Shown here: positions 42,565 to 58,185 of the stretch, in pieces
Layout: each line of letters begins with the position of its first letter
Numbering within the stretch: the stretch's first letter is position 1
NCBI GenBank assembly: GCA_022841825.1
Contig: JALHQT010000009.1
Location: forward strand, 1-64,000
Origin: Anaerolineae bacterium
GTDB lineage: Bacteria; Chloroflexota; Anaerolineae; Aggregatilineales; Phototrophicaceae
Length of the DNA: 64,000 nt
Reading direction: 5' to 3'
Program-made: the position numbers and the translations under genes
Notes under the pieces: model-generated
Databases searched by the model: none
Seen by the model: only the letters and a program-made list of their open reading frames with translations
Told to the model about the DNA's origin: nothing

Positions 42565-42715
42565 GTGATATGGGAGCGAATTAGCAAAATAGCTTTTTAG
42601 CTGGATAGCCTGATAGCTTGCCGGAGCAACCCAGCTTTGAAGCGATAAAGCTACACAGCTATCAAGCTAATCTGCTTCCTTGCTAATCCGCTTCCCGACT
42701 AGTCCGCTGGTTCTC
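42565..42715. repeat. TAGC octamer array A (inverted arms)
   Basis: The left arm reads as 8-bp units on the + strand: GAATTAGC AAAATAGC, then TTTTTAGC TGGATAGC, then CTGATAGC. The right arm has the complementary AGCTATCA / AGCTAATC type units. Read on the minus strand, the right arm begins with the TAG stop of the 42699 gene (GACTAGTC) and continues GGGAAGC, GGATTAGC, AAGGAAGC. About 35 bp of spacer has weaker periodicity. Confidence 0.8.
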
Positions 42716-43184
42716 GTTCCAGCGTCTCGCTGGCGACCTGACGACGCAGCGACTCGTTCTCCTCGCGCAGGCGCTTGTTCTCGGCGCGCAGCTCGCGGTA
42801 CGACGAATCGAGCGCGATCCGATCCTGGTTCGTCTCGTGCGTCGCTTCCTGGAGCCGCGCTTCCGCCGCCTCCAGCCTGCGCGTCGCTCGCTCCAACTGT
42901 TTGCGCAGGCTGTTGATCGTCTCGACCGATTCCTGGAGCTGTGCCTCCAGATCCAGAATGCGTGTATTGGCTTCGGTGAGCGACCGCAGCGCCGCTTCGG
43001 TTTCGCGGATCGCGACGACTGCACGCTCCTGCGCGGCAGTTTCGCGCGCTTCCGCCGTCTTGACGCGCGTCTCGTTTGCTTCCAGGAGCTTTCCTCCCGT
43101 GCGGACGACAAAGTAGAGGACGACGAGCGAAAAGAGTCCCACCCCTGCATCCGTCACCAGCTTGACCATATCGAAGTCGCTCAT
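42699..43184 (-). CDS. Membrane-anchored coiled-coil protein of the phage block
   Basis: The 161-residue protein has one N-terminal helix (about 13-30, GVGLFSLVVLYFVVRTGG) followed by about 120 residues of continuous, charged coiled coil (KTAEARETAAQERAVVAIRE and onward). The topology resembles phage spanin- or holin-associated proteins, but there is no sequence family evidence. Its TAG stop starts the right arm of TAGC array A. Confidence 0.65.
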   Translation of the reverse strand: MSDFDMVKLVTDAGVGLFSLVVLYFVVRTGGKLLEANETRVKTAEARETAAQERAVVAIRETEAALRSLTEANTRILDLEAQLQESVETINSLRKQLERATRRLEAAEARLQEATHETNQDRIALDSSYRELRAENKRLREENESLRRQVASETLEREPAD

Positions 43185-43221
43185 CGCGATGTTCCTCTCT
43201 TCATGACTCGTAGCGAAAGCG

Positions 43222-43356
43222 AATTAGCCGATTAGCAAGGAAGCAAATTAGCTTGATAGCTGTGTAGCTCGATAGCACATCGCAAGCGATGGTTCCCCGA
43301 CACGCACACAAACAAGCTGCCAAGCTATCCAGCTATCAGGCTATCCAGCTAATTCA
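43222..43356. repeat. TAGC octamer array B (inverted arms)
   Basis: The left arm has seven consecutive 8-bp units: GAATTAGC CGATTAGC, AAGGAAGC AAATTAGC, TTGATAGC TGTGTAGC, TCGATAGC. After a ~38-bp spacer the right arm has five units in the opposite orientation (AGCTATCC, AGCTATCA, GGCTATCC, AGCTAATT). The right arm runs into the TAG stop (AATTAGC on the minus strand) of the 43349 gene. Confidence 0.85.
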
Positions 43357-43618
43357 CTTCTTCCTCGTCCAGCTCTTCCAGCTGCACGCTGATCAGCACG
43401 CGCAGCGCCTGCGCCACGTCGCGCAGCAGCTTGCGCTCTTCGCGGTACAGAGCCGTCAACGTGGCGTTGTTGGTGATCTGCGTCGGGTAGTTCGTGTTAG
43501 ACAGCCAAACATCCAGCGCCGCGACGATGGCGTCGCGCTCCGTCTTCAGCTTCTTGCGCCGTTCGCGGCGGTCTACCTGTCGCCCGATCCTGCCGTTCGG
43601 CGTGATTTCGGTTGGCAT
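43349..43618 (-). CDS. Small phage-block protein, unknown function
   Basis: 89 residues, charged and largely helical (DRRERRKKLKTERDAIVAAL), with an acidic C-terminus. AGGAG lies 6 nt before ATG 43618. The TAG stop codon is the first TAG of octamer array B. Confidence 0.65.
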   Translation of the reverse strand: MPTEITPNGRIGRQVDRRERRKKLKTERDAIVAALDVWLSNTNYPTQITNNATLTALYREERKLLRDVAQALRVLISVQLEELDEEEVN

Positions 43619-43626
43619 ATCTGCTC

Positions 43627-44124
43627 CTATGGCGCTGCCGCCGTGATACCCACGCGCCCGATGTGCAGCGCGTTCTGCCGTTTGACGATGATGTGATAGG
43701 AGCCAGCAGCGGGGGTCTTGAAGGTCAGCGTCGCCGCCCCCGCCGTCACCGCTGCCGTGCCCGTCGCCCATTCGCCCTCTTCGTACAGCGTGCCGCCGTC
43801 GCTGCCCGTGTAGTGGACGGCGTAATCGAGCGCCGGGTCACTCGCCATCACCGCGCCGCTCACCGTCACGGTCGCCGTGTCGGTGTCGTCGGCGGCAATC
43901 GTCGTCTTGTCCGTCACGACGGTCAGCCCGTAGGCGGTCGTCTGCAAGACGTTCATGACCGCCGCGATCTGCGCCTCCGTCAGCACGTTTTCGCAGTGCA
44001 CCGTCACCCGGTCGGGCGAGCGGCTGATGCCCGCGAACGCCTCGCCGATCATGAAGCGCAGCACGCGGTCGAGGGCGGAGGGTGAAAGCGGCAGGAAGGG
44101 GGTCTCGTAGCTAAAGTTTTGCAT
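43627..44124 (-). CDS. Phage-block structural protein, Ig-like region
   Basis: The 165-residue protein has an N-terminal helical part (LDRVLRFMIGEAFAGISRSP) and a beta-rich C-terminal half with IAADDTDTATVTVSGAVMAS and LTFKTPAAGSYHIIV, as in Ig-like tail or capsid decoration domains. It starts 9 nt before the end of the upstream gene in transcription order. Confidence 0.6.
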   Translation of the reverse strand: MQNFSYETPFLPLSPSALDRVLRFMIGEAFAGISRSPDRVTVHCENVLTEAQIAAVMNVLQTTAYGLTVVTDKTTIAADDTDTATVTVSGAVMASDPALDYAVHYTGSDGGTLYEEGEWATGTAAVTAGAATLTFKTPAAGSYHIIVKRQNALHIGRVGITAAAP

Positions 44125-44132
44125 GGCTCCGC

Positions 44133-44579
44133 CTAACTCACTTCGCGCAGCACGATGGACTGCACCGTCGTCGTATTCGTGAACCCGCCTGTGGCGTACC
44201 ACTGCGGTTTGATGGTGTGCGCGCCCGCGCTTAAGACGTCCGTCCACAGCACCGGACCGCTGTACATCAGCCCTTCGCCCTGGAAGATCGGGGAGCCATC
44301 CACCAGCCATTTGATGTAACCGCCCGTGCCGCCGCTGACCGTCGCCGTCAAGCGTGCCACCAGCAGGATGCGCGCGCTGGCGGACAGCGTGATCGACAGG
44401 CTGAGCGACGCATCGATGTCCACATACGACGCGCTGGTCGTCGTGAACGTCGCTGTCTGCTGGAGCACCGTCGTCGCTGGGTTCTTGAGTTCAAGCAGGT
44501 TGTCGCGGATTTGCTCGTTCAGATTAGCTTGACTAACCAGTTGCGCGGCTGTCCATGTGATCGGTGCATTCCATGCCAT
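44133..44579 (-). CDS. Phage tail/virion protein, unknown subfamily
   Basis: 148 residues. The N-terminus (WNAPITWTAAQLVSQANLNE QIRDN) follows the pattern seen at the start of many phage tail-fibre or minor structural proteins. The rest is beta-rich (TFTTTSASYVDIDASLSLSI). It immediately follows the large tail protein. Confidence 0.6.
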   Translation of the reverse strand: MAWNAPITWTAAQLVSQANLNEQIRDNLLELKNPATTVLQQTATFTTTSASYVDIDASLSLSITLSASARILLVARLTATVSGGTGGYIKWLVDGSPIFQGEGLMYSGPVLWTDVLSAGAHTIKPQWYATGGFTNTTTVQSIVLREVS

Positions 44580-44580
44580 C

Positions 44581-47424
44581 TTAAAATCCTAACGTTGTCG
44601 TGTCGCCCAACTCACTCGATCCCACCACGCCCAGCAGCCACGTCTTGGTGCGCGACGCCTTCTCGACGATGTAGCGCGTCGCGTGCAGCGACAGCCCTTC
44701 CGTCATCGTGTGCTCTTCGCCGACCACGAAATAATCCTGGTCGTGCACCGTCTGCGCCTCGACGATCCGCACTCGGCTGCCGACGGTCAGCGACCGCTGC
44801 CAGCCTTTGTACTGCGCATCGCGGTTGACGATGCCCAGCGACACCACGTCGCCGCTCGCGTTGTTGTAAAGATTCAGGGTGTGCCGCGCGATGGCGTCCG
44901 CCAGGTCGCGGTTGTCCAGCACGCCCGTCTCGATCCGCATGGCGCGCCGCCCGTACAGCGCGACCGAGATGGGGTCGGCGGCGGTCACGGTCTCATCGCG
45001 GTGTGCCGTCAGCTTTCGCCCGCGCACGACCAGTGTCTGCACGCTGCCGCCGCCACCGCCGCCCCTCAGCGTCACATTCACCCGCTTCGCCTCGACGACG
45101 AAGCCGCCCAACTCCGCCGACCCGGTCAGCTCCAGATCGACGCCGCTCGGTGGCGAGACGTCCAGCGCCGAGACCTCTTCGCCTTCGTCGCCTGCGAATT
45201 CGCCGTTCAGCGTGCGTTCTTCGCCTGCTTTTAAGGTTATCGGACTGTCAAGCCTGTAAACGACTTCATTAGCCGTCGCCGAGATGCTGCGCGGGCGCAC
45301 CACCACCTCGACCTGGTTGATCAACTGCTCGCCGTAGCGATAGGTCAGCGTCATCTGCTGGTTGGTCAGCGTCGCCGCCAGGCTGGTCGCCAGTTGCAGA
45401 TGCTGGCGGTTCCAGAACACCGCCTGCCCTTCGCGGTCGAAGAAGAAGCGTCCGCGCTCGCCGTCGGTGAGGTCCCGGATCGCCTCGTATGCCGTCACCC
45501 CGTTCGCCCAGGTGTCGCCCACATACGCAAAGGTGGCGATGCCCACTTCCAGCATCGTCTGCGCTTCCGCCAGGCGCGTGTTGGTGCCCAGCTCGCTGTA
45601 ACCCGCCGCGCCCAACACCCACGCCTTGCCCAGCGCAGGCGGCATCTGCACCTGGCTGAGGATCTTGTCGATCATCTCGTCAGCCCGCGCATTCAGTTGC
45701 AGCGGAAGGCTCAGCGTCGCGTCCTGCAAAAAGCGCTTTGCGCCGATCGCGCTCATCATCGCCGTCTGCTTGCCCCGCTCGCCGGGCGCGGGCTGAATCA
45801 GCTCGATCCAGCCCGTGTACATCACGACCGACGGCTCTGCGGTCACATTCAGCACCTGCACCCGTCGGTGAGGCAGCATCTGCCCATACAGCGGCGATGC
45901 GCTGTTCTCAGGCGAAAAGCGGCGGTCGATATTGACCAGCTCAAATTCTGCATCCGTCTCATCCGCCACGCTCATGAACGGCTTACGGAAGCCGACCTGC
46001 CAGCGCGCCGACCGCACATAGTCCGTGATGTCTTCGTTCGCATCGTCGTAGTCGCCGTCGTTGTCCCAGTCCACCAGGATCTGCACCAACCCAGTGGCAG
46101 CAGCCGGCGCGCTCACCGTGATGTACGCCGTCTTCGTTTCGACGTCGCTGCCGCCCGCGTTCGTCGCCGTCAGCTTGACGGTATAGGTACCCGCCGCGCT
46201 GTAGACGTGCGTGGGGTTCTGCGAGGTGCTGTCGGTGCTGCCATCGTTGGTGAAGTCCCACGCCCAGCTCGTCGGGCTGTTGGTCGAGGTATCCGTGAAA
46301 TTGACGGTCAGCGGCGCGGTCCCGCTGGTCGCGCTTGCCGAGAAGTTCGCGACCGGCGCGGGCGGCGGCGCTGCACTGACGGTGATGTAGTCTGTCTTGA
46401 CCTCATCGTCGCTGCCGCTCGTATTGGTCGCGGTCAGCTTGACGGTGTACGTGCCCGCCGCGCTGTAGACGTGCGTGGGGTTCTGTGAAGTGCTGTCGGT
46501 GCTGCCGTTATTGGTGAAATCCCACGCCCACGAAGTCGGACTATTGCTGGACGTGTCGGTGAAGGTGACCGAGAGGGGAGCGACCCCGCTGGTCACGCTG
46601 GCGCTGAAGTTCGCCACCGGAGGCGGAATATAGGCAGGCGGCGCGACGCTCTCTTCCACCAACCACGCAGGGTCACGCGCAATAAGGGCGATCTCGCCCG
46701 CCGTCAGCGCGCGATTGAAGATCGCCGCCATCACGCAGTCGGCGGTCGGGACGTTGCCGTCTTCTACAGGGTCGGTATGCCCGCCACTGACGACCACGCC
46801 GGGCTGCGTCCCCGTGTTCGGAAGCGCGTTGGTGATGGTTGCCGACCCGACTGCGACCCCGTCCTTATAGAACGTGGTCACGCCCTGAGCGTAGGTCACC
46901 GCGTAAAGCTGCGCCTTCTCGCCTGTGGCAATCGCTCCCGTGTTGCTGCTGCTGGAATAGGTGTTCACCCCGTCACGGACGACGGCGTACAGGCTGCTGG
47001 TCATCGAGTCGCGCCGCAGTTGCAGCGCGGCTTCCATCGTCGCCCAGGACGCGGTGCGCGGCACGCTGATCAGGCTGTCGTCGCCATCGGGGTGAAAGGC
47101 GGTGATGCTCCCGTACCACAGCAGGGACCAGCCCGTAGCTATCGAGGTCAGCCGCCCAGGAAAGGGGAATGTCACACTGCCCGCGTCATCACGGGTGGCG
47201 AAGTGCCCCTCGCCCAGTTGCGCGCTGCCTTGCAGCGTGCCCACGCCGCCGCTCACCCCTTCGCGCAGTCCGAAGTAGCGCGGGAACGCCAGCCAGACCA
47301 GCCCCGCGCCGCGTCGCGCGCGCGGAAGCATCCTGCCGGGCAGCGACGCGCCAAAGCGCCCCGTATCGCCGGAGGGCACATCGAACGACAGGGGGTCGAA
47401 CGAGTCGCGGTCAAATGTGCTCAT
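44581..47424 (-). CDS. Large phage tail protein with LamG-like, two PKD and baseplate-like regions
   Basis: 947 residues. Residues 1-260 resemble a concanavalin/LamG-like sandwich (VTTFYKDGVAVGSATI). Two tandem PKD domains follow at about 270-351 and 358-439, nearly identical to each other (WAWDFTN-GSTDSTSQNPTHV, AAGTYTVKLTATN). From about 445 on the sequence is tail/baseplate-like (LVQILVDWDNDGDYDDANED, DYVRSARWQVGFRKPFMSV). PKD and LamG domains suggest binding to a glycan or cell surface. It is the largest protein of the block. Confidence 0.75.
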   Translation of the reverse strand: MSTFDRDSFDPLSFDVPSGDTGRFGASLPGRMLPRARRGAGLVWLAFPRYFGLREGVSGGVGTLQGSAQLGEGHFATRDDAGSVTFPFPGRLTSIATGWSLLWYGSITAFHPDGDDSLISVPRTASWATMEAALQLRRDSMTSSLYAVVRDGVNTYSSSSNTGAIATGEKAQLYAVTYAQGVTTFYKDGVAVGSATITNALPNTGTQPGVVVSGGHTDPVEDGNVPTADCVMAAIFNRALTAGEIALIARDPAWLVEESVAPPAYIPPPVANFSASVTSGVAPLSVTFTDTSSNSPTSWAWDFTNNGSTDSTSQNPTHVYSAAGTYTVKLTATNTSGSDDEVKTDYITVSAAPPPAPVANFSASATSGTAPLTVNFTDTSTNSPTSWAWDFTNDGSTDSTSQNPTHVYSAAGTYTVKLTATNAGGSDVETKTAYITVSAPAAATGLVQILVDWDNDGDYDDANEDITDYVRSARWQVGFRKPFMSVADETDAEFELVNIDRRFSPENSASPLYGQMLPHRRVQVLNVTAEPSVVMYTGWIELIQPAPGERGKQTAMMSAIGAKRFLQDATLSLPLQLNARADEMIDKILSQVQMPPALGKAWVLGAAGYSELGTNTRLAEAQTMLEVGIATFAYVGDTWANGVTAYEAIRDLTDGERGRFFFDREGQAVFWNRQHLQLATSLAATLTNQQMTLTYRYGEQLINQVEVVVRPRSISATANEVVYRLDSPITLKAGEERTLNGEFAGDEGEEVSALDVSPPSGVDLELTGSAELGGFVVEAKRVNVTLRGGGGGGSVQTLVVRGRKLTAHRDETVTAADPISVALYGRRAMRIETGVLDNRDLADAIARHTLNLYNNASGDVVSLGIVNRDAQYKGWQRSLTVGSRVRIVEAQTVHDQDYFVVGEEHTMTEGLSLHATRYIVEKASRTKTWLLGVVGSSELGDTTTLGF

Positions 47425-47452
47425 CGTCGCCCTTTCCCGCGTCGGTCAGCCG

Positions 47453-47938
47453 TTAGCGATATTGAATGTGAATAGCCCCAAAGGAGGGATCGGTCGCGCC
47501 GTTTCCGTTGATGCCGATCACGCGCAGCACCACATCCGCTTTGGCAGCCGCCGTAATCGATACCCAGGAGCTTTTGTAAAGTCCCCCTGCGCTGATTGAG
47601 ACGGCGGGACCCGACACGTTATCGACATAGCTGAAAGAGGAGTTATCCAGGCTGTACTGCACCCGCAGCTCTGCCGATGCCTCACCCGCCACGCCGACTG
47701 ACACACACAGCCGCATCTCTGTCGCATAGGTCAAGTCGACCCAAAACCGATAGCGTGACGACCCATTAAACTCGGTCAGCGCCGAGGGCATATCCGTCCA
47801 GGTGGCATTGGCGAATTGCACGAAGTAGGTGCAGTCGAAGTATGGCGCGGTGTGGTTGGCGTTCCAGTCGCTCGGCTTGACCAGTGTGGTATCGCCGGGG
47901 TCGCTTTTCCCGCTCGTGAATGCGTGTTTAATCGGCAT
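47453..47938 (-). CDS. Phage-block structural protein
   Basis: 161 residues. The N-terminal MPIKHAFTSGKSDPGDTTLV and PSDWNANHT pattern is common at the start of phage tail appendage proteins. The rest is a beta-sandwich-like region (RYRFWVDLTYATEMRLCVSV, YSLDNSSFSYVDNVSG). It lies between the large tail protein and a second small structural protein. Confidence 0.6.
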   Translation of the reverse strand: MPIKHAFTSGKSDPGDTTLVKPSDWNANHTAPYFDCTYFVQFANATWTDMPSALTEFNGSSRYRFWVDLTYATEMRLCVSVGVAGEASAELRVQYSLDNSSFSYVDNVSGPAVSISAGGLYKSSWVSITAAAKADVVLRVIGINGNGATDPSFGAIHIQYR

Positions 47939-47940
47939 GG

Positions 47941-48387
47941 TTACGCCACCTCGTATGCGCTCATGACGATCTTCAGCGTGTTGCCGCTCGCCGCCATCGT
48001 CTGCCCGCTGTTGTTCGCCACGATCACCTTGAAGTCAGTCGGCGGCAGCGGGACGCCTGTCAGCAGCAGCCGCTGCGCCGTGTTGACCGCGCGCACCGCG
48101 AAGCTGCCCACGTAGCCGCTGTCGCTCGGCACGACTGAGCTGCTGCCGTCCGCGTAGTTCGTCCCGTCCAGCGTCGGCAGGAAGTACAGGTCAACCGTCC
48201 GCCCCGCCGTCGGCGCAGAGCCAAAGGTGCAGACCAGCTCGAAGGTGCCGAACAGGTAGCGATTGCTCGACCCGTCGTTATCGACCGCCGCGCTGGCGTT
48301 GGTGCGGTTGCCCGTCGCCAGGCTGTTCATCTCCGTCGTCAGCAGCGTGCTGGACGCCGAGACCGCCGTGTGTTTTTGTAATGCCAT
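47941..48387 (-). CDS. Phage-block structural protein
   Basis: 148 residues, beta-rich, with a glycine/serine-rich middle (GSAPTAGRTVDLYFLPTLDG TNYADG). ATG 48387 is chosen over the upstream in-frame codon, which would begin inside the repeat cluster. Its style resembles the 50490 protein (VDLYFLPT.. versus VDFKITGS..); both may be virion surface proteins. Confidence 0.6.
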   Translation of the reverse strand: MALQKHTAVSASSTLLTTEMNSLATGNRTNASAAVDNDGSSNRYLFGTFELVCTFGSAPTAGRTVDLYFLPTLDGTNYADGSSSVVPSDSGYVGSFAVRAVNTAQRLLLTGVPLPPTDFKVIVANNSGQTMAASGNTLKIVMSAYEVA

Positions 48388-48416
48388 GAGGGTCTCCCGA
48401 TGTGCGTGGTTGCGCT

Positions 48417-48540
48417 GCGTGGGGTTCAAAACCCCACGCTAGGCTCTCATTTGGAAGCCCGTAAACGGGCTGTAGACTTGCATCCATTAGCCCGTTTACG
48501 GGCTTGATTTGGGAGTAGCCTCCGGTTTTGAACCGGAGGC
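48417..48540. repeat. Cluster of three different perfect palindromes
   Basis: GCGTGGGGTTCAAAACCCC with CACGC (48417-48439), AGCCCGTAAACGGGCT paired with AGCCCGTTTACGGGCT (48456-48504), and GCCTCCGGTTTTGAACCGG with AGGC (48518-48540). All share a GGTTnnAACC-like core but differ in their arms. Confidence 0.8.
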
Positions 48541-48567
48541 GAACGCAAGATGTGATGCCTGGATTGG

Positions 48568-48762
48568 TCACGACTCGCGGTTGGATTTCCCCGGCACCTG
48601 TCCGCCGTTATCGCGCACGATCTCGGCAAGCTGCTCGCGCAGGATGTCCTTGAGCGCGGACAGATCGCGGACGACGATGATCGTCGCCACGCCGCCAAGC
48701 AGGGTTTGCAGGCGCTGCTCCGCGCCCTCGTCACTCATGTGGAGGATGGTCGGTGGGGACAT
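48568..48762 (-). CDS. Small phage-block protein, unknown function
   Basis: 64 residues, mostly helical (AEQRLQTLLGGVATIIVVRD LSALKDIL). AGGAA lies 6 nt before ATG 48762. Between tail-type genes; no family recognised. Confidence 0.5.
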   Translation of the reverse strand: MSPPTILHMSDEGAEQRLQTLLGGVATIIVVRDLSALKDILREQLAEIVRDNGGQVPGKSNRES

Positions 48763-48860
48763 GATGATTCCTGGAATGGCGTAACTATCGATCAGGGAGT
48801 GCGTGGTGCGCAGTGCGTGGTGCGAACAAACGGGATCGTGTTTGTTCGCACTGCGCACAC

Positions 48861-48886
48861 GGGCGCACACACGGGTGCGCCCCTAC
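48861..48886. repeat. GTAGGGGC palindrome containing the stop codon of the 48883 gene
   Basis: GGGCGCACACACGGG joined to TGCGCCCCTAC. On the minus strand the TAG of GTAGGGG (48885-48883) ends the phage gene. A GTGCGTGGTGCG-type repeat lies just beyond (about 48798-48860). Confidence 0.85.
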
Positions 48887-49302
48887 AACGTTTGTTGAGT
48901 GAACCCCCGCCCGCCGACGAGGTTGACCACCGCCAACCCCGCCGTGCCGTCGCCTGTGTCGCCCGCCAGCGGCGTAACCTGCGTGATGCGGAACGCGCCA
49001 GATGCCTTGCGGCTGCCCGTCGTCATGTCCGGCTGGTAGAGTTCGAGCGTGAGCGCCGCGCCGGAGGCTTCCGCGTCCAGCAGCGCGCGGGTGAAGCCAG
49101 CGTCGGTTTCGCGCGCAATGGTCAGCGCCAGGCGGATCGAGCGCCCGCCCTGCGCCAGCAGCGGATCGGCGCTGGCGAGCGTGTAGATTTCGCGCGTCGT
49201 TCGTGTCAGCGTCAGCGCGCACGCCGCCACATCGCCGGAGACATCGACCCATGTCGCGCCGTCGTACCAGCGGACGACGCTGTAATGCTCGGTGATCGTC
49301 AT
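48883..49302 (-). CDS. Phage tail-type structural protein
   Basis: 139 residues, beta-rich, with VVRWYDGATWVDVSGDVAAC at the N-terminus and GGRSIRLALTIARETDAGFT, as in small tail or baseplate subunits. It overlaps the upstream gene by one nucleotide. The TAG stop comes from a GTAGGGGC palindrome. Confidence 0.6.
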   Translation of the reverse strand: MTITEHYSVVRWYDGATWVDVSGDVAACALTLTRTTREIYTLASADPLLAQGGRSIRLALTIARETDAGFTRALLDAEASGAALTLELYQPDMTTGSRKASGAFRITQVTPLAGDTGDGTAGLAVVNLVGGRGFTQQTL

Positions 49303-49748
49303 CAGCGCGCCTCCCGGATCTGCCAGAGCGCATCAACGCCCGCGTAGACCATGCGGCTGCCCGCCGGGTATGCCACGCGCCCGACGCGCAGCTCGATGCG
49401 CTCGACCACGCCGGTCGGCTTGAGGATGCCGATGCGCGTTTTGCAGGCGTCGATGTAGGCATCGGCATACGCCCGCAGCGCCTGGGTGAACTCGTCCGCG
49501 CCGCCGCCCTGCGTGAGCGGCTTATAAAGGAAGAGGTCGCGCAGCACAAACGCCGTCGTCAGGCGCGCGCTCGCCCCGCCCGTGATCGCCTCGATGCGCA
49601 GTTCGTCGATGCCGGGCAGCAGCCGCGCCGGGAGCTGCGCGGTGTGCGGAGTCTCTGGCAGCGCGGCGTTATGCAGCACAGGCACAACCTGCGCGTTGAA
49701 GACGACGGGCATGGCTGCCACCGCGTCGAGGATGCTGGTCAGGCTCAT
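49302..49748 (-). CDS. Phage head-tail joining or minor tail-type protein
   Basis: 148 residues with an N-terminal helix (SLTSILDAVAAMPVVFNAQ), a beta-rich centre and a helical C-terminal half (FTQALRAYADAYIDACKTRI). Its position right after the head-tail connector fits a joining or tail-completion protein. It overlaps both neighbours by a few nucleotides. Confidence 0.6.
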   Translation of the reverse strand: MSLTSILDAVAAMPVVFNAQVVPVLHNAALPETPHTAQLPARLLPGIDELRIEAITGGASARLTTAFVLRDLFLYKPLTQGGGADEFTQALRAYADAYIDACKTRIGILKPTGVVERIELRVGRVAYPAGSRMVYAGVDALWQIREAR

Positions 49749-50323
49749 CGCACCCTCCGTCGATACGGGTCGAGCATCAACACGACATCTTCCGGCATCC
49801 GACCCGGCAGCAGCGTATGCCCGTCGGGCGTGACGAGCGGTCGGTCGATCTCACCCGCGTGATCGCGCTGGCGATAGAGATACGCCGCCAGACGGATGCA
49901 CGCCTGCTGAATATCGGCGGGCGCGCTGACGCTGTACGCCCAGCGCCCGGTGATGCTGATGGCATCCTCCGGGTCGGTCACATACGTCCAGGTCAGCCCG
50001 CTGGCGATGCGCAGGCGCAGCCCGTAGTAGGGCGGTGTGTACGGCTCCGGCACATACGCCGTTGGCGCGACCGCGACGCCCGCATTGCTCACGCTGGTGA
50101 TCTGCGCCAGGTCAGCGTCGATGTAGAGCGTGCGCCGGTCGTCGCTCACATCGCGCCGCGCGTCGAGCGTCCGCGTGCTGTCCGCCGCCGCCTCGAAGAC
50201 GCGCCCGCAGTAGGCGTCGATGATCGCCCCCGCCCGCGCAATCAGGTCGGTCAGCAGCGCGTCGTCGGTCGCCGTCGTGATGGCGAGGTAGGTTTTGAGG
50301 GAGCCTAACGATGTATATGCCAT
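49745..50323 (-). CDS. Phage head-tail connector (gp6-like)
   Basis: 192 residues. LGSLKTYLAITTATDDALLT DLIARAGAIIDAYCGR is the classic N-terminus of gp6/YqbG-like head-tail connectors, and QQACIRLAAYLYRQRDHAGE is the typical C-terminal helix. AGGAG precedes ATG 50323. Confidence 0.82.
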   Translation of the reverse strand: MAYTSLGSLKTYLAITTATDDALLTDLIARAGAIIDAYCGRVFEAAADSTRTLDARRDVSDDRRTLYIDADLAQITSVSNAGVAVAPTAYVPEPYTPPYYGLRLRIASGLTWTYVTDPEDAISITGRWAYSVSAPADIQQACIRLAAYLYRQRDHAGEIDRPLVTPDGHTLLPGRMPEDVVLMLDPYRRRVR

Positions 50324-50386
50324 GTTATCTCCTTGGAAGGTGTGCGCGGTGCGTGGTGCGAAGTGCGAACGAACCAGGATTCTTCT

Positions 50387-50447
50387 TGGCGACCTTGGCG
50401 TCATGGCGGTTCAATACGACCACCGCCAAGACGCCAGGAACGCCAGG
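50387..50447. repeat. Hairpin repeat related to 25790-25849
   Basis: TTGGCGACCTTGGCGTCATGG and the opposing ACCGCCAAGACGCCAGGAA. A diverged copy of the GGCGACCTGGCG hairpin at 25790. Confidence 0.7.
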
Positions 50448-50469
50448 TGATTTCGCACTGCGCACACGA

Positions 50470-50493
50470 GGGCAGGACACGTCCTGCCCCTAC
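50470..50493. repeat. GTAGGGGC palindrome containing the stop codon of the 50490 gene
   Basis: GGGCAGGACACGTCCTGCCC followed by CTAC. On the minus strand TAG (50492-50490) ends the virion protein gene. Confidence 0.85.
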
Positions 50494-50933
50494 CGGATTT
50501 CGACGACGCCCGCGAGGTCGAACTCGCCTGCCTCGCTGGTGCGCAGCCCGTCGCCGAGCGCGATGACGCCGACGATGCTGGCGGCGGTGCCGACCGTCAG
50601 GCTGCCCTTGATGTAGCGCCAGCCCTGCGCGCCGACCTGCTCGGCGGTCACTTCCAGCAGCGCCAGCTTGTTATCGCCGCTCGCCTTGACGATCTGCGTG
50701 AGGCTGCGCCCGGTCACGTCGGCGTAGGTGCCGCCGCTGGTCGCGCTGCCGGTGATCTTGAAATCGACTGTCGCGGATGTGCCCAGCACGCCCGTCTGGA
50801 CGATGAAGGCGACGCGCCGCACGTTCGCCATGTCGATGGCGGCGGTGAGCTGCGTGCCTGCGGAATAGGAGGCGGGCGAGATCTGCCCGACGATGGGCAG
50901 CCGTTCGCCCATCTTCTCTGTTGCGAAGCTCAT
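50490..50933 (-). CDS. Putative capsid decoration/virion protein
   Basis: 147 residues, beta-rich (VRRVAFIVQTGVLGTSATVD FKITGS). It is the first gene after the capsid gene, as expected for a head decoration protein. No family is recognised with certainty. The TAG stop is supplied by a palindromic repeat. Confidence 0.6.
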   Translation of the reverse strand: MSFATEKMGERLPIVGQISPASYSAGTQLTAAIDMANVRRVAFIVQTGVLGTSATVDFKITGSATSGGTYADVTGRSLTQIVKASGDNKLALLEVTAEQVGAQGWRYIKGSLTVGTAASIVGVIALGDGLRTSEAGEFDLAGVVEIR

Positions 50934-50987
50934 GTGTGGATTCCTCGTGCGTAAGGGTAGTGGGATGGCGTGGTGGGTTGGAGAATT

Positions 50988-51125
50988 AGCTCGATAGCTT
51001 TCTAGCCGGATAGCCTGTTAGCACCTTGGCTGGACGGATCGCGAGCCTGTTCGTGGAATCGATCGGTGATGGAGCCATGCAGCTATCAGGCTATCGAGCT
51101 AAAGGGCTAATCCGCTTCCCCGCTA
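50988..51125. repeat. TAGC octamer array C (inverted arms)
   Basis: The left arm has five 8-bp units: GAATTAGC TCGATAGC, TTTCTAGC CGGATAGC, CTGTTAGC. After a ~60-bp spacer the right arm, read on the minus strand, runs AACTAGC, GGGGAAGC, GGATTAGC, CCTTTAGC, TCGATAGC, CTGATAGC. Its first TAG is the stop codon of the capsid gene. Confidence 0.85.
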
Positions 51126-52892
51126 GTTCGTGAACACCACAAACGGCGACATCTCGTAGGGCGTGCTGGCGTTCTGCGGGTCCGCCAGCGTGATCTTGCC
51201 CTTGACCCAGGGCTGACCATCGCAGCGCATCCCAAAGCGCCAGGTGTCCGTGCCTTCGGTGAAGGCGGCGTGCTCGCTGAACTCGATGTACAGCCCACCG
51301 CGCTCGAACAGCACATAGCCGCCCATGTCCGCCAGCACGACGCTGTCGGTATTGTCGGTCTGCGGCAGATGCTCGCTGACGACCAGCGGGTAGCCGAGCA
51401 GCGTCCCGCCGACCGGCGCGCTGAGGTTCGCCATCCACACGCTGCCGCCGCTGCCGTTCTGCATGACGGCGATGTCGTTGATCACGCTGGGGTGATAGAC
51501 CCAGATCGGTGCGCTGCCCACCGACTTCATGCGCGCCACCATCTTGACCGCGTCACCATAAGCGAAGGTGTTGCTCGCCGCCGCCGCCACGTTGACGCGC
51601 GCCGCCGCGTTCAGGATGCCCAGCGGCTCGCCGACGCCATTGCCGCGCAGCACGAGCTGCTCCAGCTTGCTGCCGACGGCGATGCTGATGACGCTGCGCA
51701 GGAACGCTTCGATGCCCGCAGGCGTATCGGCGCGCAGTTCTTTCGTCACCTTGATCATGCCGCTCGCCACGTCGGCGACGCGGTAGCGGATGACCTCGAA
51801 TTCCGGGTTGGTCTCGGTGTACGAGGCACCTTCCGCGCGCTTGATCGCCTTCGCCTTGCCCGCCTGGGAGGTTTCGCCGCTGCCCGCGCCGGGCACGAAG
51901 TACTGATCCAGCGCCGGGTATTCGCCCGCCGGGGTGTTGACCGGGATGCGCTTGACGCGCGCCAGCACCGCCGACTGCTCCGCCGCGAGCTGCATGAGCT
52001 GCGCGCTGTATTCGGTCGGCACGGTGTAGCCGCCCAGCGCGCCCGTCTGCGAGTCCAGCGTGGTCTTCAGGCTGCCGTAGATGACAGCGAGGCGCTTCTC
52101 GTCGCCGCGCATGATCGACAGCAGGTAATCGCCCAGCGACTTGATGTGCTTGTCGGCGCTGCCGCCATCGACCGTGAAGTAGCCCGCGCCGCGCACCGCC
52201 GGGGCGTCCTGCATGAACTGCAAGACCTGCTGCATCTGCGCGCTGACGGCGTCCAACTGCGCGCGCAGCCCTTCGTATTCCTGCGTGTGTTCCATTGCCT
52301 GTTCCCCTGTCGTCATCAAAGATTGTGCGATCCCATGCCCAGAAACGCGCGAGGCATGCCTCGCCCCTACGGGTACGGGGATGTCTGTAGGGACGAGGCG
52401 TGCCTCGTCCGCCGCCCATACGCCAAGCGTCTTCAACGCCACGACCCGCGCGCGCGGCTCCTCGGCAATCGCCCACTTGCGCACCTGCTGCGATTTGCCG
52501 ACGCGCTGACGCTCGACCAGATGCGCCGCCGCGCCCGATGACCAGCCAAGCGTGCCCGATTGCGCCATCTCGTAGAGCGCCCGCTCGTACTCGTCGCGCA
52601 AATCGAGCTGCGCCTCGATCCACACGCCAACCGCATCGCGGCGCAGCGTCGCCCGCCCGATGCGGCGCTTCTTCAGCGCGCCGTCCAACCCATGCAGGTA
52701 GTAGACGGGGCGCGAGTCGCCATCTTCAAAATCGAACGCCGTCTCCGGCGTGAAGAAATCGCCCTCGATGTCCGGCGTGGCGGAGTCGCCATAGACGATC
52801 AGATGCCCACCGAGCCGCCCCTCGCCGAGCGTCTTGATCGCGCCGCCGAAGGCGACCAGGGTGTCGGGGATAACGAGATGATCCTGCAACAT
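51123..52892 (-). CDS. HK97-type prohead protease and major capsid protein in one reading frame
   Basis: 589 residues. Residues 1 to about 160 are a prohead protease-like domain (FGGAIKTLGEGRLGGHLIVY, IGRATLRRDAVGVWIEAQLD, LGWSSGAAAHL). About 160-181 come from two palindromic repeats (52349-52413). From about 200 on there is a coiled-coil scaffold (EYEGLRAQLDAVSAQMQQVL) and an HK97-fold capsid (LGGYTVPTEYSAQLMQLAAE, VLRGNGVGEPLGILNAAAR). An internal ATG at 52295 has AGGGG about 9 nt before it and could produce free capsid protein. The TAG stop opens TAGC array C. AGGAG precedes ATG 52892. Confidence 0.85.
   Translation of the reverse strand: MLQDHLVIPDTLVAFGGAIKTLGEGRLGGHLIVYGDSATPDIEGDFFTPETAFDFEDGDSRPVYYLHGLDGALKKRRIGRATLRRDAVGVWIEAQLDLRDEYERALYEMAQSGTLGWSSGAAAHLVERQRVGKSQQVRKWAIAEEPRARVVALKTLGVWAADEARLVPTDIPVPVGARHASRVSGHGIAQSLMTTGEQAMEHTQEYEGLRAQLDAVSAQMQQVLQFMQDAPAVRGAGYFTVDGGSADKHIKSLGDYLLSIMRGDEKRLAVIYGSLKTTLDSQTGALGGYTVPTEYSAQLMQLAAEQSAVLARVKRIPVNTPAGEYPALDQYFVPGAGSGETSQAGKAKAIKRAEGASYTETNPEFEVIRYRVADVASGMIKVTKELRADTPAGIEAFLRSVISIAVGSKLEQLVLRGNGVGEPLGILNAAARVNVAAAASNTFAYGDAVKMVARMKSVGSAPIWVYHPSVINDIAVMQNGSGGSVWMANLSAPVGGTLLGYPLVVSEHLPQTDNTDSVVLADMGGYVLFERGGLYIEFSEHAAFTEGTDTWRFGMRCDGQPWVKGKITLADPQNASTPYEMSPFVVFTN
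52349..52413. repeat. In-frame palindrome pair at the protease-capsid junction
   Basis: CGAGGCATGCCTCGCCCCTAC and GTAGGGACGAGGCGTGCC with its complement, in inverted order. Translated as about ADEARLVPTDIPVP and GARHAS. Confidence 0.85.
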
Positions 52893-52944
52893 GGTTGCTC
52901 CTTGTGTCGGGTGCGGGGTGCGAAGTGCGAAAGAACAAGGCGTT

Positions 52945-53080
52945 GTAGGGGCGCACCCGTGTGTGCGTCCGGCACCCGTGTGTGCGCCCGTGCATGCCAC
53001 CCATCGCGCACTCCGGGCGCACCCGTGTGTCCGCCCCTACATCCTCATCACCTTGTGCCTCATCACCTCATCACCTACCC
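52945..53080. repeat. Intergenic composite repeat
   Basis: GTAGGGGCGCACCCGTGTG, repeated CACCCGTGTG units and a closing TCCGCCCCTAC (52945-53040). A CTCATCACCTCATCACC stretch follows, directly after the end of the portal gene. A GTGCGGGGTGCGAAGTGCG repeat lies just upstream (52909-52932). Confidence 0.8.
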
Positions 53081-53083
53081 GCA

Positions 53084-54184
53084 TTACCCCTCAAACCCCA
53101 GCGCCGCCCGCACCTCGTCGCGCGTCACGATACCCGCCTTGTAGAGCGAAAGCGTGCGCGCGGTCTTCTCCGCCTCTCGCGTCTGGTAGACGGGCAGCAG
53201 CTCCGGCTTGAACTTCAGCCGCACGCCGTAGCGCGCGAAGATACTCTCGTTGAGCGCCGCTTCGATCAGCTGCGCCTGCGGGATGATCGTCGTGTCGTAG
53301 AACGTCAGGACATCCTGCTGCGCGGTCGCGTAGTTCGCCGCACTGCTGAACAAGAGCGAATGCGGCACGCCGAGCGCCGTCGCGATCTCCTCGCGCTTGC
53401 TGGTCGTCAGCTCGACCATCGCCAGATCGGTCAGCTTGACCATGCCGAGCGGCTCGACGCGGATGCCCGCCCGCAGCGCAATCGTGCGGAAGGCGTTGCG
53501 AATGCCCGCGAACGAACGCTCGACCCAGCTCTCCAGCTTTTCGAGTTCCTGGCTGGGCGGCATCCCTTCGACAGTGATGATGGTCGGTGCCAGCACGCCC
53601 TGCGCGTACATCTGGTCGATCAGGGCGTTCGCGCCGCGCACCACGCCCGCCGCCGCCAGCGCCGCCTGTGCCGGGGCAAAACCCGCGCCGATCTCCGCCT
53701 CGCGCACGGGCATCCAGATCGCGCACACCTCGTCCGGCGACAGGCGCTCGCCGCCGCGCTCGTAGGCGACCAAGCCGCGCGCATCGTCGAACACGGGTTT
53801 GATCGTGCGCGGATGGATCGGTCGCACGCTGCGGACGCGGCGGGCGGCATTCATCCCCTTGTAGAGATACGCCGCGCCGTACAACGTCAGCCAGCCTTCG
53901 ATCTGGTTGAGCATCTCCGGCAGTCGGGCGATCTCGAACGGCAGGCGCGGCGGCTCGGACTGCTCACGCCCATCGACCACCCAGGCATACGGCAGCGCGG
54001 AGAGCGCCGCCGCCCGCTGCTCGACCGCGCGATACAGCCACGCCGCCGACTTGTAGAGCGCGATCACGTCGTTCGGCGCGGCGACGTCGCCGCGCACGAC
54101 CTGCCACGCTTCCGGCGGCAGCCCGTCGAGCGAGACGCTCTTCAACGCGCCCTCGCCCCCGTAGAGCAGATAAGTTCCTGGCAT
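53084..54184 (-). CDS. Phage portal protein (HK97-type)
   Basis: 366 residues with the portal pattern: ALYKSAAWLYRAVEQRAAAL near the N-terminus, LYGAAYLYK, IHPRTIKPVFDD, then GAGFAPAQAALAAAGVVRGA, LGVPHSLLFSSAANYATAQQ and FYDTTIIPQAQLIEAALNE. GGGAG lies 8 nt before ATG 54184. It follows the terminase in the usual head-gene order. Confidence 0.87.
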   Translation of the reverse strand: MPGTYLLYGGEGALKSVSLDGLPPEAWQVVRGDVAAPNDVIALYKSAAWLYRAVEQRAAALSALPYAWVVDGREQSEPPRLPFEIARLPEMLNQIEGWLTLYGAAYLYKGMNAARRVRSVRPIHPRTIKPVFDDARGLVAYERGGERLSPDEVCAIWMPVREAEIGAGFAPAQAALAAAGVVRGANALIDQMYAQGVLAPTIITVEGMPPSQELEKLESWVERSFAGIRNAFRTIALRAGIRVEPLGMVKLTDLAMVELTTSKREEIATALGVPHSLLFSSAANYATAQQDVLTFYDTTIIPQAQLIEAALNESIFARYGVRLKFKPELLPVYQTREAEKTARTLSLYKAGIVTRDEVRAALGFEG

Positions 54185-54205
54185 GTGTGTACTCCCGCAT
54201 GATTC

Positions 54206-54407
54206 GCCCTCACCCCAAACCCCTCTCCCACGCGATGCTCCGCGGGCAGTAAACAGCGTAGTTGCGAGAACGCATCGGGGTAGAGGGGCTTCAGAGTCGC
54301 ATTGCGGCAACTTGCCTGGCTCCCCCTCGCCCCCATCGCGCAATCGTTGTTACGCTGGTCGAGTCTCTCTGCGCGATGCGTGGGAGAGGGGGCTGGGGGG
54401 TGAGGGC
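54206..54407. repeat. ~200-bp CCCTCACC...GGTGAGGG inverted-repeat element
   Basis: The ends are GCCCTCACCCC and GGGGGGTGAGGGC. The interior contains GCGAGAACGCATCGGGG and CTCCCCCTCGCCCCCATCGC, shared in order with the element at 57862-58081. No coding capacity; MITE-like. Confidence 0.8.
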
Positions 54408-56079: not shown

Positions 56080-57624
56080 ATGACCTCATCCGGCGCTGTG
56101 CCCGCGTCCGCTTCCTCGCGCATCGTCGAGCGCTTCACGCTCATCGCCACCATCCTCGCCTCGTCGATGGCGTTCATCGATGGCAGCGCCCTGACCATCG
56201 TCCAGGCGATCATGCAGCGCGACTTCAATGCCGATTACACGCTGGTTGCCTGGGTCATCAATGGCTACAACCTGATGCTGGCGGCGCTCATCCTGGTCGG
56301 CGGCTCGCTGGGCGACCATTACGGACGCAAGCGGGTCTTCATGGTCGGCATCGGCGTCTTCACCGCCGCGTCGCTGGCGTGTGCGCTCGCGCCGGATGTT
56401 GGCTTTCTGATCGTCGCGCGTATCGTCCAGGGCATCGGCGGCGCGCTGATGATCCCCGGCAGCCTGTCGCTGATCAGCGCGGTCTTCCCAGCGGAACGGC
56501 GCGGCGCGGCGATTGGCATCTGGTCGTCGGCGGGCGCGCTGATGGTGATCGCCGCGCCGATCCTGGGCGGCTTGTTCGCCAGCGCGGACAACTGGCGCGG
56601 GGTCTTCTACATCAACCTGCCGATCGCGCTCATCGCGCTGGTGGCGCTGACGCGCGTGCCGGAGTCGCGCAGCCAGGGCATGGCGAAATCGCTCGACATC
56701 CCCGGCGCGCTGCTCGTCACGCTGGGGCTGGCAGGCATCACCTACGGCTTCACCGAAGCGCCGGTGCAGGGTTGGTCGCAGCCGCTGGTCGTCGCCAGCC
56801 TGGTCGTCGGCGTCGCCGCGCTGATCGCTTTCGTGTGGGTCGAGGCACGGTCGCCCGCGCCGATGATGCCGCTGCGCCTGTTCCGCGTCCCGGCGTTCGC
56901 GGGCACCAACCTCCTCACGCTGTTTCTGTACGCCGGGCTGGCGCTGATTGGGACGTTCACGCCGCTCAACCTGATCGAGATCCAGCGCTACCCGCCGGAA
57001 GTCGCGTCGCTCTCGCTGCTGCCGCTGGCGCTCTCGCTGATCATCCTCAGCTCGTTCATGGGCGGGCTGGTCGCCCGTGTCGGCGCGCGCCCTCTGCTGA
57101 CGATTGGACCCGCCATCGCGGGCGTCGGCATGTTCCTGCTCGGCGTGCCGGAGGTGACGGGCGGGGCGGGCGAGTACTGGACGACCTTCTTCCCCGGCTC
57201 GCTCCTGCTCGGCATCGGCATGGGCATCACGGTCGCGCCGCTGACGACGACCGTCATGAACAGCGCGCCGTCCGAGATGAGCGGCACGGCGTCCGGCATC
57301 AACAACGCCGTCTCGCGCGCGGCGGGGGTGCTGGCGATTGCCATCTTCACGGCGCTGGCGCTGGCGACCTTCGCGGGCGCAGTGTCGTCACGCACGGCGG
57401 ATCTGGCGATCAGCGAGGATGCGCAGGCGCAGATCAGCGAGGAAAGCGCCAAGCTCGCCAACGCCCGCGCGCCGGAAAGCCTGAGCGCGGACGAGCAGAT
57501 CGTCGTCAACGACGCCTTTCGCCTGTCGTTCGTCGATTCCTATCGGCTGATCGCCTGGGGATCGGCGGCGCTGGCATTCCTCGGTGCGGCGATGGGGTGG
57601 GTGTTTGTGGGGAAGAAGGGATGA
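56080..57624 (+). CDS. MFS drug efflux transporter, DHA2 (EmrB/QacA) family
   Basis: A 514-residue transporter with about 14 membrane helices. It has DHA2 motifs: SSMAFIDGSALTIVQAIMQ in helix 1, the motif A loop GGSLGDHYGRKRVF, motif C-like GALMVIAAPILGGLFA, and a large loop before the last helix (about 445-485). It probably exports drugs or other hydrophobic compounds by proton antiport. It is separated from terL by a short AT-rich gap with a palindrome. The stop codon lies at the start of a tandem repeat. Confidence 0.93.
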   Translation: MTSSGAVPASASSRIVERFTLIATILASSMAFIDGSALTIVQAIMQRDFNADYTLVAWVINGYNLMLAALILVGGSLGDHYGRKRVFMVGIGVFTAASLACALAPDVGFLIVARIVQGIGGALMIPGSLSLISAVFPAERRGAAIGIWSSAGALMVIAAPILGGLFASADNWRGVFYINLPIALIALVALTRVPESRSQGMAKSLDIPGALLVTLGLAGITYGFTEAPVQGWSQPLVVASLVVGVAALIAFVWVEARSPAPMMPLRLFRVPAFAGTNLLTLFLYAGLALIGTFTPLNLIEIQRYPPEVASLSLLPLALSLIILSSFMGGLVARVGARPLLTIGPAIAGVGMFLLGVPEVTGGAGEYWTTFFPGSLLLGIGMGITVAPLTTTVMNSAPSEMSGTASGINNAVSRAAGVLAIAIFTALALATFAGAVSSRTADLAISEDAQAQISEESAKLANARAPESLSADEQIVVNDAFRLSFVDSYRLIAWGSAALAFLGAAMGWVFVGKKG

Positions 57625-57625
57625 G

Positions 57626-57703
57626 GCAAGAGGTGATGAGGTGATGAGGGGGGAAGGGGATGGGGCAAGAGGTGATGAGGTGATGAGGGGGGAAGGGGAT
57701 GAG
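57626..57703. repeat. Two tandem 39-bp repeats
   Basis: Unit GCAAGAGGTGATGAGGTGAT and following G/A-rich bases, repeated with a 39-bp period straight after the transporter stop. A related CTCATCACC stretch is at 53043-53080. Confidence 0.85.
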
Positions 57704-58185
57704 GGCGTAGGGGACGACCCATGTGTCGTCCCGGCGGGTGACGGGTAATGTGTAGGGGACGACCCATGTGTCTGCCCGCGTCGCCATACATTTGCCCGCG
57801 TCGCCTATCCGTTTGAACGCCATACGGTAGGGATGACGCCTGTCGCCCGCTCCCTATCCCGTCCTCACCCTAAATCCGCCTCCGCTCTGCATCCGGCGTC
57901 CCACACGATGCTGCACAGACAATATCTGGTGTTGTTTGCGAGAACGCATCGGGGGAGAGGGACTTTGAGATCGCCACGCCAAAGGATTCTGGACTCCCCC
58001 TCGCCCCCATCGCGCTGGGAAACTGCCGCGGCTGGATTCTCACTGCGCGATGTGTGGGAGAGGGGGGCGGGGGGTGAGGGCGACAGTCCTGATCCCTACC
58101 ATATTGGCGTTTGAACGGTCGGTGAGCACAACTCGAAACATCGGACGACCGGACAAAGCACCGCAGCGTGCATCCGCTACCCCCC
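57704..58185. repeat. Gene-free repeat region between the efflux pump and the TIR-TPR gene
   Basis: Holds GTAGGGGACGACCCATGTG palindrome copies (57708-57787) and a second ~220-bp CCTCACCC...GGTGAGGG element (57862-58081) homologous to 54206-54407. I see no gene in it. Confidence 0.75.

Follow-up and report, generated by a model that had tools for sequence, protein, structure and literature searches.

Inverted TAGC octamer arrays in an Anaerolineae prophage resemble a family of small elements akin to rRNA intervening sequences

The closest described systems to the DNA considered here are the intervening sequences (IVS) of bacterial rRNA genes. In the consulted parts of PMC4990558, the IVS in the 23S rRNA of Coxiella burnetii is a 428-nt element that carries an S23p gene, is closed by a 28-bp stem of terminal inverted repeats and is excised by RNase III. 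It contains tandem heptamers (GACAGAT) whose copy number differs between strains (PMC4990558). The same source portion describes the S23/IVP proteins as having a known fold and no known function. A second point of reference is the TAACTGA direct repeats reported, in the portion of PMC4679880 consulted, from Beggiatoaceae, Cyanobacteria and Bacteroidetes. Here we analyse three blocks of inverted arrays of 8-base units ending in TAGC, which lie in a prophage within positions 1 to 64,000 of contig JALHQT010000009.1 of an Anaerolineae bacterium (assembly GCA_022841825.1). This whole stretch of 64,000 nucleotides is referred to as the window. Among the rRNA IVS, gene-less examples also exist, for instance in Salmonella.

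How does this locus compare with the known systems? We interpret the three blocks as gene-less representatives of a family of small IVS-type elements located between genes, with roles in landing, RNase III cleavage and IVP action as proposed below, and assign this reading a probability of roughly 60%. The family relation by itself is highly probable from the sequence comparison. Gene-bearing members measure about 430-440 bp and consist of two inverted arms of degenerate 7- or 8-base units around a single IVP/S23 gene for a four-helix bundle. In their length of about 430 bp, their single four-helix-bundle gene and their stem-forming terminal inverted repeats they are like the Coxiella IVS, as they are in the short tandem units of the arms, whose number varies in Coxiella. 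Unlike rRNA IVS, the elements studied here are built of octamers and occupy sites among protein-coding genes, also within a prophage; of the 24 clusters in this genome, 23 are without an IVP gene. The three window elements sit between prophage protein genes rather than in an rRNA helix, and none holds an S23/IVP gene (loops of 32, 47 and 59 nt). Because both the internal gene and the rRNA location are missing, they look like a new variant and not like IVS proper. RNase III excision is a feature of rRNA IVS that would apply here by analogy. According to the portion of PMC4679880 consulted, the TAACTGA repeats are likewise mostly intergenic, short and tandem, with stops in three frames and a patchy distribution that suggests transfer with no known mechanism; unlike the window arrays they are heptamers, direct rather than inverted, and stand mostly before start codons. 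The main text of that paper makes no mention of S23 or of a helix bundle. Taken as a whole, the family looks widespread among bacteria and hardly noticed, to judge from the comparisons that follow.

The triple pattern TAGCN4TAGCN4TAGC matches 13 times in the window, always inside the three regions named in the initial annotation, and never in 100 dinucleotide-preserving shuffles. These matches belong to six octamer arms of the N4TAGC type, which form three inverted pairs within the prophage (42578-42701, 43221-43355 and 50983-51125). In the autocorrelation of all six arms lag 8 exceeds every other lag from 3 to 13, a value equalled by at most 0.25% of 2000 mononucleotide shuffles. The inverted arrays, their 8-bp period and the unit vocabulary common to them, as first described, are thus real. 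The N4TAGC octamer is the dialect of this genome, although the grammar in the window is wider than the annotation had it, with AAGGAAGC, GAATGAGC and similar units interspersed. The annotation also had each right arm start at the TAG stop of a gene. Minus-strand open reading frames (ORFs) do end at 42699, 43349 and 51123 with their stop codons inside the right arms, but the TAG at 42699 belongs to a degenerate outer stretch of element 1 (ACTAGTC), outside any TAGC unit. On folding, a check that the annotation had listed, the terminal inverted repeats have the potential to form a stem, with folding z scores of -3.1 to -6.2 on both strands for the three elements. A CRISPR array was considered and rejected, as the octamers are contiguous and degenerate and have no spacers; the arrays are not coding either.

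The family extends well beyond the window. In the whole genome (5.9 Mb, 21 contigs), the search that the annotation had proposed returned 99 triple-pattern matches as against two for a reversed-pattern control. The window and 19 stretches fetched around other matches hold 24 clusters of at least three TAGC at lag 8, situated at gene junctions according to gene calls made with our own codon-usage script, and the proposed tie to phage genes is therefore abandoned. Both a plus and a minus arm are found in 23 of the 24; one cluster (L008) is one-armed. A neighbouring gene stops at the TAG of the outermost lag-8 unit in 8 of the 24. Because octamer steps bring TAG into every reading frame over a span of 24 bases, any gene that runs into an array should meet a stop close to the array edge. 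Reading inward, all three frames are stopped in 92 of 208 arms, compared with 51 of 208 reading outward (p = 3e-5). Of 22 gene-less elements folded on the plus strand, 17 have hairpin z scores below -3 (60 shuffles each). Rfam, applied to nine of the 19 stretches from this genome, gave no match. One hairpin (L019, 6077-6437), also without an Rfam match, has a 241-nt spacer in which small inverted repeats are abundant by look.

What protein might serve these arrays? The cluster at C5:167637-168124 has a spacer of about 440 bases that matches array spacers in two other genomes, G002 and G013. It encodes, between TAGC arms, a 23S_rRNA_IVP protein (PF05635, E 3.3e-39; gene at C5:167712-168023), whose nearest solved structure by sequence is 2gsc (E 4.9e-22). 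The initial annotation had advised a search for a binding protein, and this advice was apt: the comparison points to IVP/S23 as a candidate. In the genus and family of this bacterium most PF05635 genes, among the matches listed, stand between inverted arrays of 7-8-base units, with arms of the TAGC, GAGTACC, GAGTGCC, GAGTTCT, GATGAGGT and other kinds. The remnant of a second IVP gene was seen in the same genome (L193, G000:C8:133637-133747), between heptamer arms of GAGTAAC type. In titles and abstract beginnings of the open-access literature we found no published report that links S23/IVP genes with flanking short tandem arrays; the nearest was PMC4990558.

The flanks of IVP genes were scored by locally aligning each left flank to the reverse-complemented right flank. 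The 126 IVP loci yielded 119 distinct, nearly full-length genes after removal of L185 (no match with our hidden Markov model), matches covering less than 80% of the model and identical genes; 115 have both flanks, those of the other four being too short. Vertically inherited pairs were kept (L190/L197, L183/L189, L177/L188), so the genes are not independent. The median score is 23, compared with 11 for flank pairs taken from different genes, whose 95% level is 16, and with a 95% level of 19 for places shifted outward by 330 bases. A score above 16 was reached by 104 of the 115 genes, 74 lie above the 99% level of the pairs from different genes and 84 exceed 19. In the 5' arms of the 104, the best lag is 7 in 58 cases, 8 in 29, 9 in 10 and another value in 7, so that 7 or 8 accounts for 87. 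Two sets not chosen by TAGC, each judged by its own 95% level, repeat this result, with 33 of 40 genes from Patescibacteria and 9 of 12 from plasmids (11 of the 12 cyanobacterial) above that level; plasmid IVP genes can sit within gene pairs such as cas6-cas4, cas10-cmr3 and nrdB-nrdA. Three weak PF05635 members on a tree branch of their own have no arms (scores 9-11) and by look are probably Avd proteins.

These figures also bear on the idea that the arrays are plain long microsatellites grown by slippage, with inverted partners arising by chance or template switching. Simple tandem repeats do occur among the matches, such as (GGGCTAGC)n in an alphaproteobacterial metagenome-assembled genome and TAGCTAGT in L101. 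Inverted flanks at 104 of 115 IVP genes, degenerate units, arms inverted around a loop and a dialect common to the loci of a genome make this very unlikely. An even fainter prospect is that the hairpins are REP/REPIN-like and moved by a RAYT transposase (Y1, TnpA_REP). REP/REPIN elements are thought to move in trans; they too are small hairpins, repeated many times per genome, and there are five Y1_Tnp matches in the genome of the window. The protein is a different one, however, and Y1_Tnp also occurs in members of the genus without TAGC arrays. At 20 Y1 loci of the same genomes the median flank score equals the null; 6 of the 20 exceed the 95% level, and by eye the high-scoring flanks show other hairpins and the 20 genes no tandem arms of 7- or 8-base units.

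How far do hairpins and IVP genes occur together? Triple-pattern matches occur in 13 of 60 other genomes that were selected for relatedness. More than three matches were found in two of 14 same-genus genomes (G002, 52; G013, 30) and in one of the same family (G022, 27). A pattern scan across genomes of 84,980 species found TAGC hairpins as 95 stretches, part of them self-palindromic microsatellites, in 41 genomes, one of which (G085) is by coordinates the same assembly as G013. The 41 belong to Patescibacteria, Acidimicrobiia, Bacteroidota, Verrucomicrobia, Anaerolineae, Proteobacteria and others. A family search placed PF05635 in 36 of these 41 genomes from several phyla and in none of 14 controls. 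Patescibacteria often have this family in any case: it reaches the cut-off in 51 of 99 genomes around G071, or in 47 of 95 without the four hairpin genomes. It is present in all 19 named patescibacterial hairpin genomes as against this 47/95 background (Fisher p = 1.3e-5), which consists of relatives of one genome, G071. Viral contigs held the hairpin pattern in two stretches, read in part, with no IVP relative confirmed.

The arms appear to follow the protein. Of the 119 IVP genes, 24 are preceded by two or more TAGC and followed by two or more GCTA, and 8 show the opposite orientation. On the IVP tree the TAGC-arm label, assigned from a simple tally (at least two per 200-base flank), changes 14 times, compared with a shuffled mean of 22.2 (none of 500 as low); the tree has few columns and many unresolved forks, and retained near-copies also help the label to cluster. 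The TAGC-armed IVP of G002 does not share a branch with the GAGTNNN-armed IVPs of that genome. For 13 TAGC-armed genes, the units resemble the gene-less hairpins of their own genome at rank 1 to 5 of 31 (mean 1.9, expected 16); they remain from 23 picked by hand as TAGC-like after the removal of ten with insufficient units or vocabulary. Gene-less hairpins in a heptamer dialect exist too (e.g. L311, L312, L318, L324 and L330). Arms and gene have copies within one genome. L220 and L252, 6 kb apart on one contig, are 83.9% identical over 435 bp, start and end in their arms and have no BLAST match beyond the element in 500-bp flanks. In another genome L236 and L255, on different contigs, agree at 73% over 444 bp by BLAST, a looser alignment extending slightly further. 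Elements of different patescibacterial genomes share the same unit (L207/L224 and L198/L207). In L190/L197, L183/L189 and L177/L188 the similarity continues beyond the element, and these pairs were therefore probably inherited in place. At orthologous junctions, the L003 hairpin is missing from G002 and G013, where stop and start lie 26 bases apart. The L011 hairpin near 5733 is present in both with other units and loops and absent in G003, and at the L009 hairpin near 7964 both carry different arrays. The L011 IVP element is missing in both, with another insert at that junction. Orthologous junctions of G002 and G013 (L292, L293, L289) also showed a repeat type CCCTCATCCCC...GGGAGAGGGATTTAGGGTGAGGGC, either within array elements or replacing them.

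Might the arrays instead be RNA hairpins made by the host, as terminators, RNase III sites or stabilizing stems, built by slippage and kept by selection, where IVP genes merely land? The hairpin potential, the placement beside stop codons and the retention of arrays with changed units at two orthologous junctions all speak for it. The grammar, however, recurs here and there across several phyla, and 12 of the 14 same-genus genomes have little or none of it. Arm types group on the IVP tree, more than one kind being present in G002, and arms plus gene are copied as one unit. We regard this explanation as unlikely.

Several observations weigh against an IVS-type family served by IVP. Of four orthologous junctions studied, two have arrays in the relatives as well, built of other units, and some elements are therefore old and turning over rather than jumping. 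Within the genus, PF05635 is present in 3 of 3 array genomes and in 4 of 12 others, a difference short of significance (p = 0.077). Five of the 41 TAGC-hairpin genomes are without PF05635; L028 and L101 are self-palindromic microsatellite and L078 is a regular hairpin, and self-palindromic matches are also found among the 36 positive genomes (L037, L045, L050, L086). The drafts G008 and G010 have GAGTDCY arrays with no PF05635 match, and G006 has a TAGC-armed IVP with no triple-unit TAGC match. Eleven of the 115 IVP genes do not score above 16, among them two of the same-family genome G022 (scores 10 and 16). The operon bias in orientation is not significant (20/24 as against 165/237, p = 0.24). 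Arms pair with their own partner no better than with arms of other elements (median 22 and 21), and complementarity therefore comes from the genome-wide unit vocabulary. When the gene-less loops were compared with the IVP element of the same genome (20 of 22 testable by length), only three beat shuffles, and these still hold array units. An origin as miniature inverted-repeat transposable elements, by internal deletion of an IVP element, was likewise considered and is not supported, no relationship to the IVP gene having emerged for the 20 loops compared. Compared with one another, the gene-less loops reach a best score of 15, for which no null was computed.

What mechanism could unite these features? 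The initial annotation, whose observation is confirmed and whose interpretation is partly supported, gave none. Sequence comparison brings out the inverted arms, the link to IVP across phyla, the common dialect, gene-bearing copies in the same genome, presence and absence at junctions and the hairpin potential. We propose for the IVS-type family that a copy would land behind a gene or within its last codons. Since a TAGC unit holds TAG and steps by 8, reading into the element would stop in any frame, and the insertion would therefore be tolerated; other dialects often offer another stop codon and a step of 7. In an operon transcript the arms may pair as a long hairpin in any register, because the arms of one genome share the same units. 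RNase III probably cuts this hairpin as it does in rRNA IVS, leaving the flanking messages separate and still usable; we give this step, argued from the rRNA case, about an even chance. IVP is predicted to bind the arms, as RNA or single-stranded DNA, and would be the probable trans-acting factor that spreads gene-bearing and gene-less members alike. This role in mobility is put forward tentatively, at a little under even odds. The idea was voiced for rRNA IVS by Ralph and McClelland in 1993, as cited in the consulted part of PMC4990558.

A different route would be retro-mobility, in which a reverse transcriptase copies the hairpin RNA in trans and IVP acts like its relative Avd of diversity-generating retroelements. 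Avd belongs to a related four-helix-bundle family (a weak IVP match to bAvd, below cut-off), and tandem degenerate units might suit a slipping polymerase. Unlike the IVP genes, the three probable Avd-like members are without inverted arms, and RVT_1 matches are missing from 15 of 40 genomes with IVP, among them the 99% complete G022 and the 98% complete G012. We consider this route improbable; a general need for reverse transcriptase in trans is not supported, given the missing RVT_1.

More speculatively, and with less confidence than the mobility role for this family, IVP/S23 might be the trans-acting mobility factor of a broad class of tiny elements defined by a repeat grammar rather than by fixed ends. 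Each IVP clade would have its dialect and hosts would accumulate gene-less hairpins in it, so that rRNA IVS, TAACTGA repeats and prophage arrays would be one system. If IVP genes are nearly always bracketed by inverted arrays of short units and gene-less copies share the dialect, the likely substrate of the protein lies in plain sight and its role is directly testable. If true, this would tie together the rRNA intervening sequences and the intergenic heptamer and octamer repeats of several phyla, and would show how a tiny element sits safely at gene ends by means of stops in every frame.

The coordinates of the window elements and of two adjoining genes are collected in Table 1. The neighbours of the arrays include terminase, portal and major capsid genes, and the surrounding region is therefore a prophage.

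Table 1. Positions of the array elements and adjoining genes in the window
Feature	Position	Strand	Remark
Element 1 left arm, GAATTAGC AAAATAGC TTTTTAGC TGGATAGC CTGATAGC	42578..42617	+	lag 8 = 0.66
Element 1 loop, 32 nt	42618..42649	.	match to own IVP element no better than shuffled loops
Element 1 right arm, partly degenerate	42650..42701	-	outer end holds TAG stop of gene 42699-43184 (-)
Prophage gene between elements 1 and 2, 161 aa	42699..43184	-	no PHROGs match; Pfam matches all below cut-off
Element 2 left arm, seven octamers, one of them AAGGAAGC	43221..43276	+	lag 8 = 0.58
Element 2 loop, 47 nt	43277..43323	.	
Element 2 right arm	43324..43355	-	TAG of outermost TAGC is stop of gene 43349-43771 (-)
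Element 3 left arm, five octamers	50983..51022	+	lag 8 = 0.59
Element 3 loop, 59 nt	51023..51081	.	
Element 3 right arm	51082..51125	-	outer TAG is stop of major capsid gene
Prophage major capsid gene, PF05065, phrog_10	51123..53000	-	directly upstream of element 3 in transcription

Other repeats were seen in the window. At 57609-57709 a further array with an 8-base lag, in another dialect (GAGGTGAT/GATGAGG), starts at the TGA stop of ORF 56080-57624, which is transporter-like by look. No inverted partner was found for it; the array is similar to the arms flanking IVP gene L196 (G002). Repeats of CCTCATCACCT type, in opposite orientation, occur at 53043-53076, at the 3' end of the portal gene 53084-54343 (-). 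Finally, the repeats around GTAGGGGCGCACCCGTGTGTGCG / GTAGGGGACGACCCATGTGTCGTCC at 52944-53041 and 57707-57778 are, by look, a separate dispersed family.

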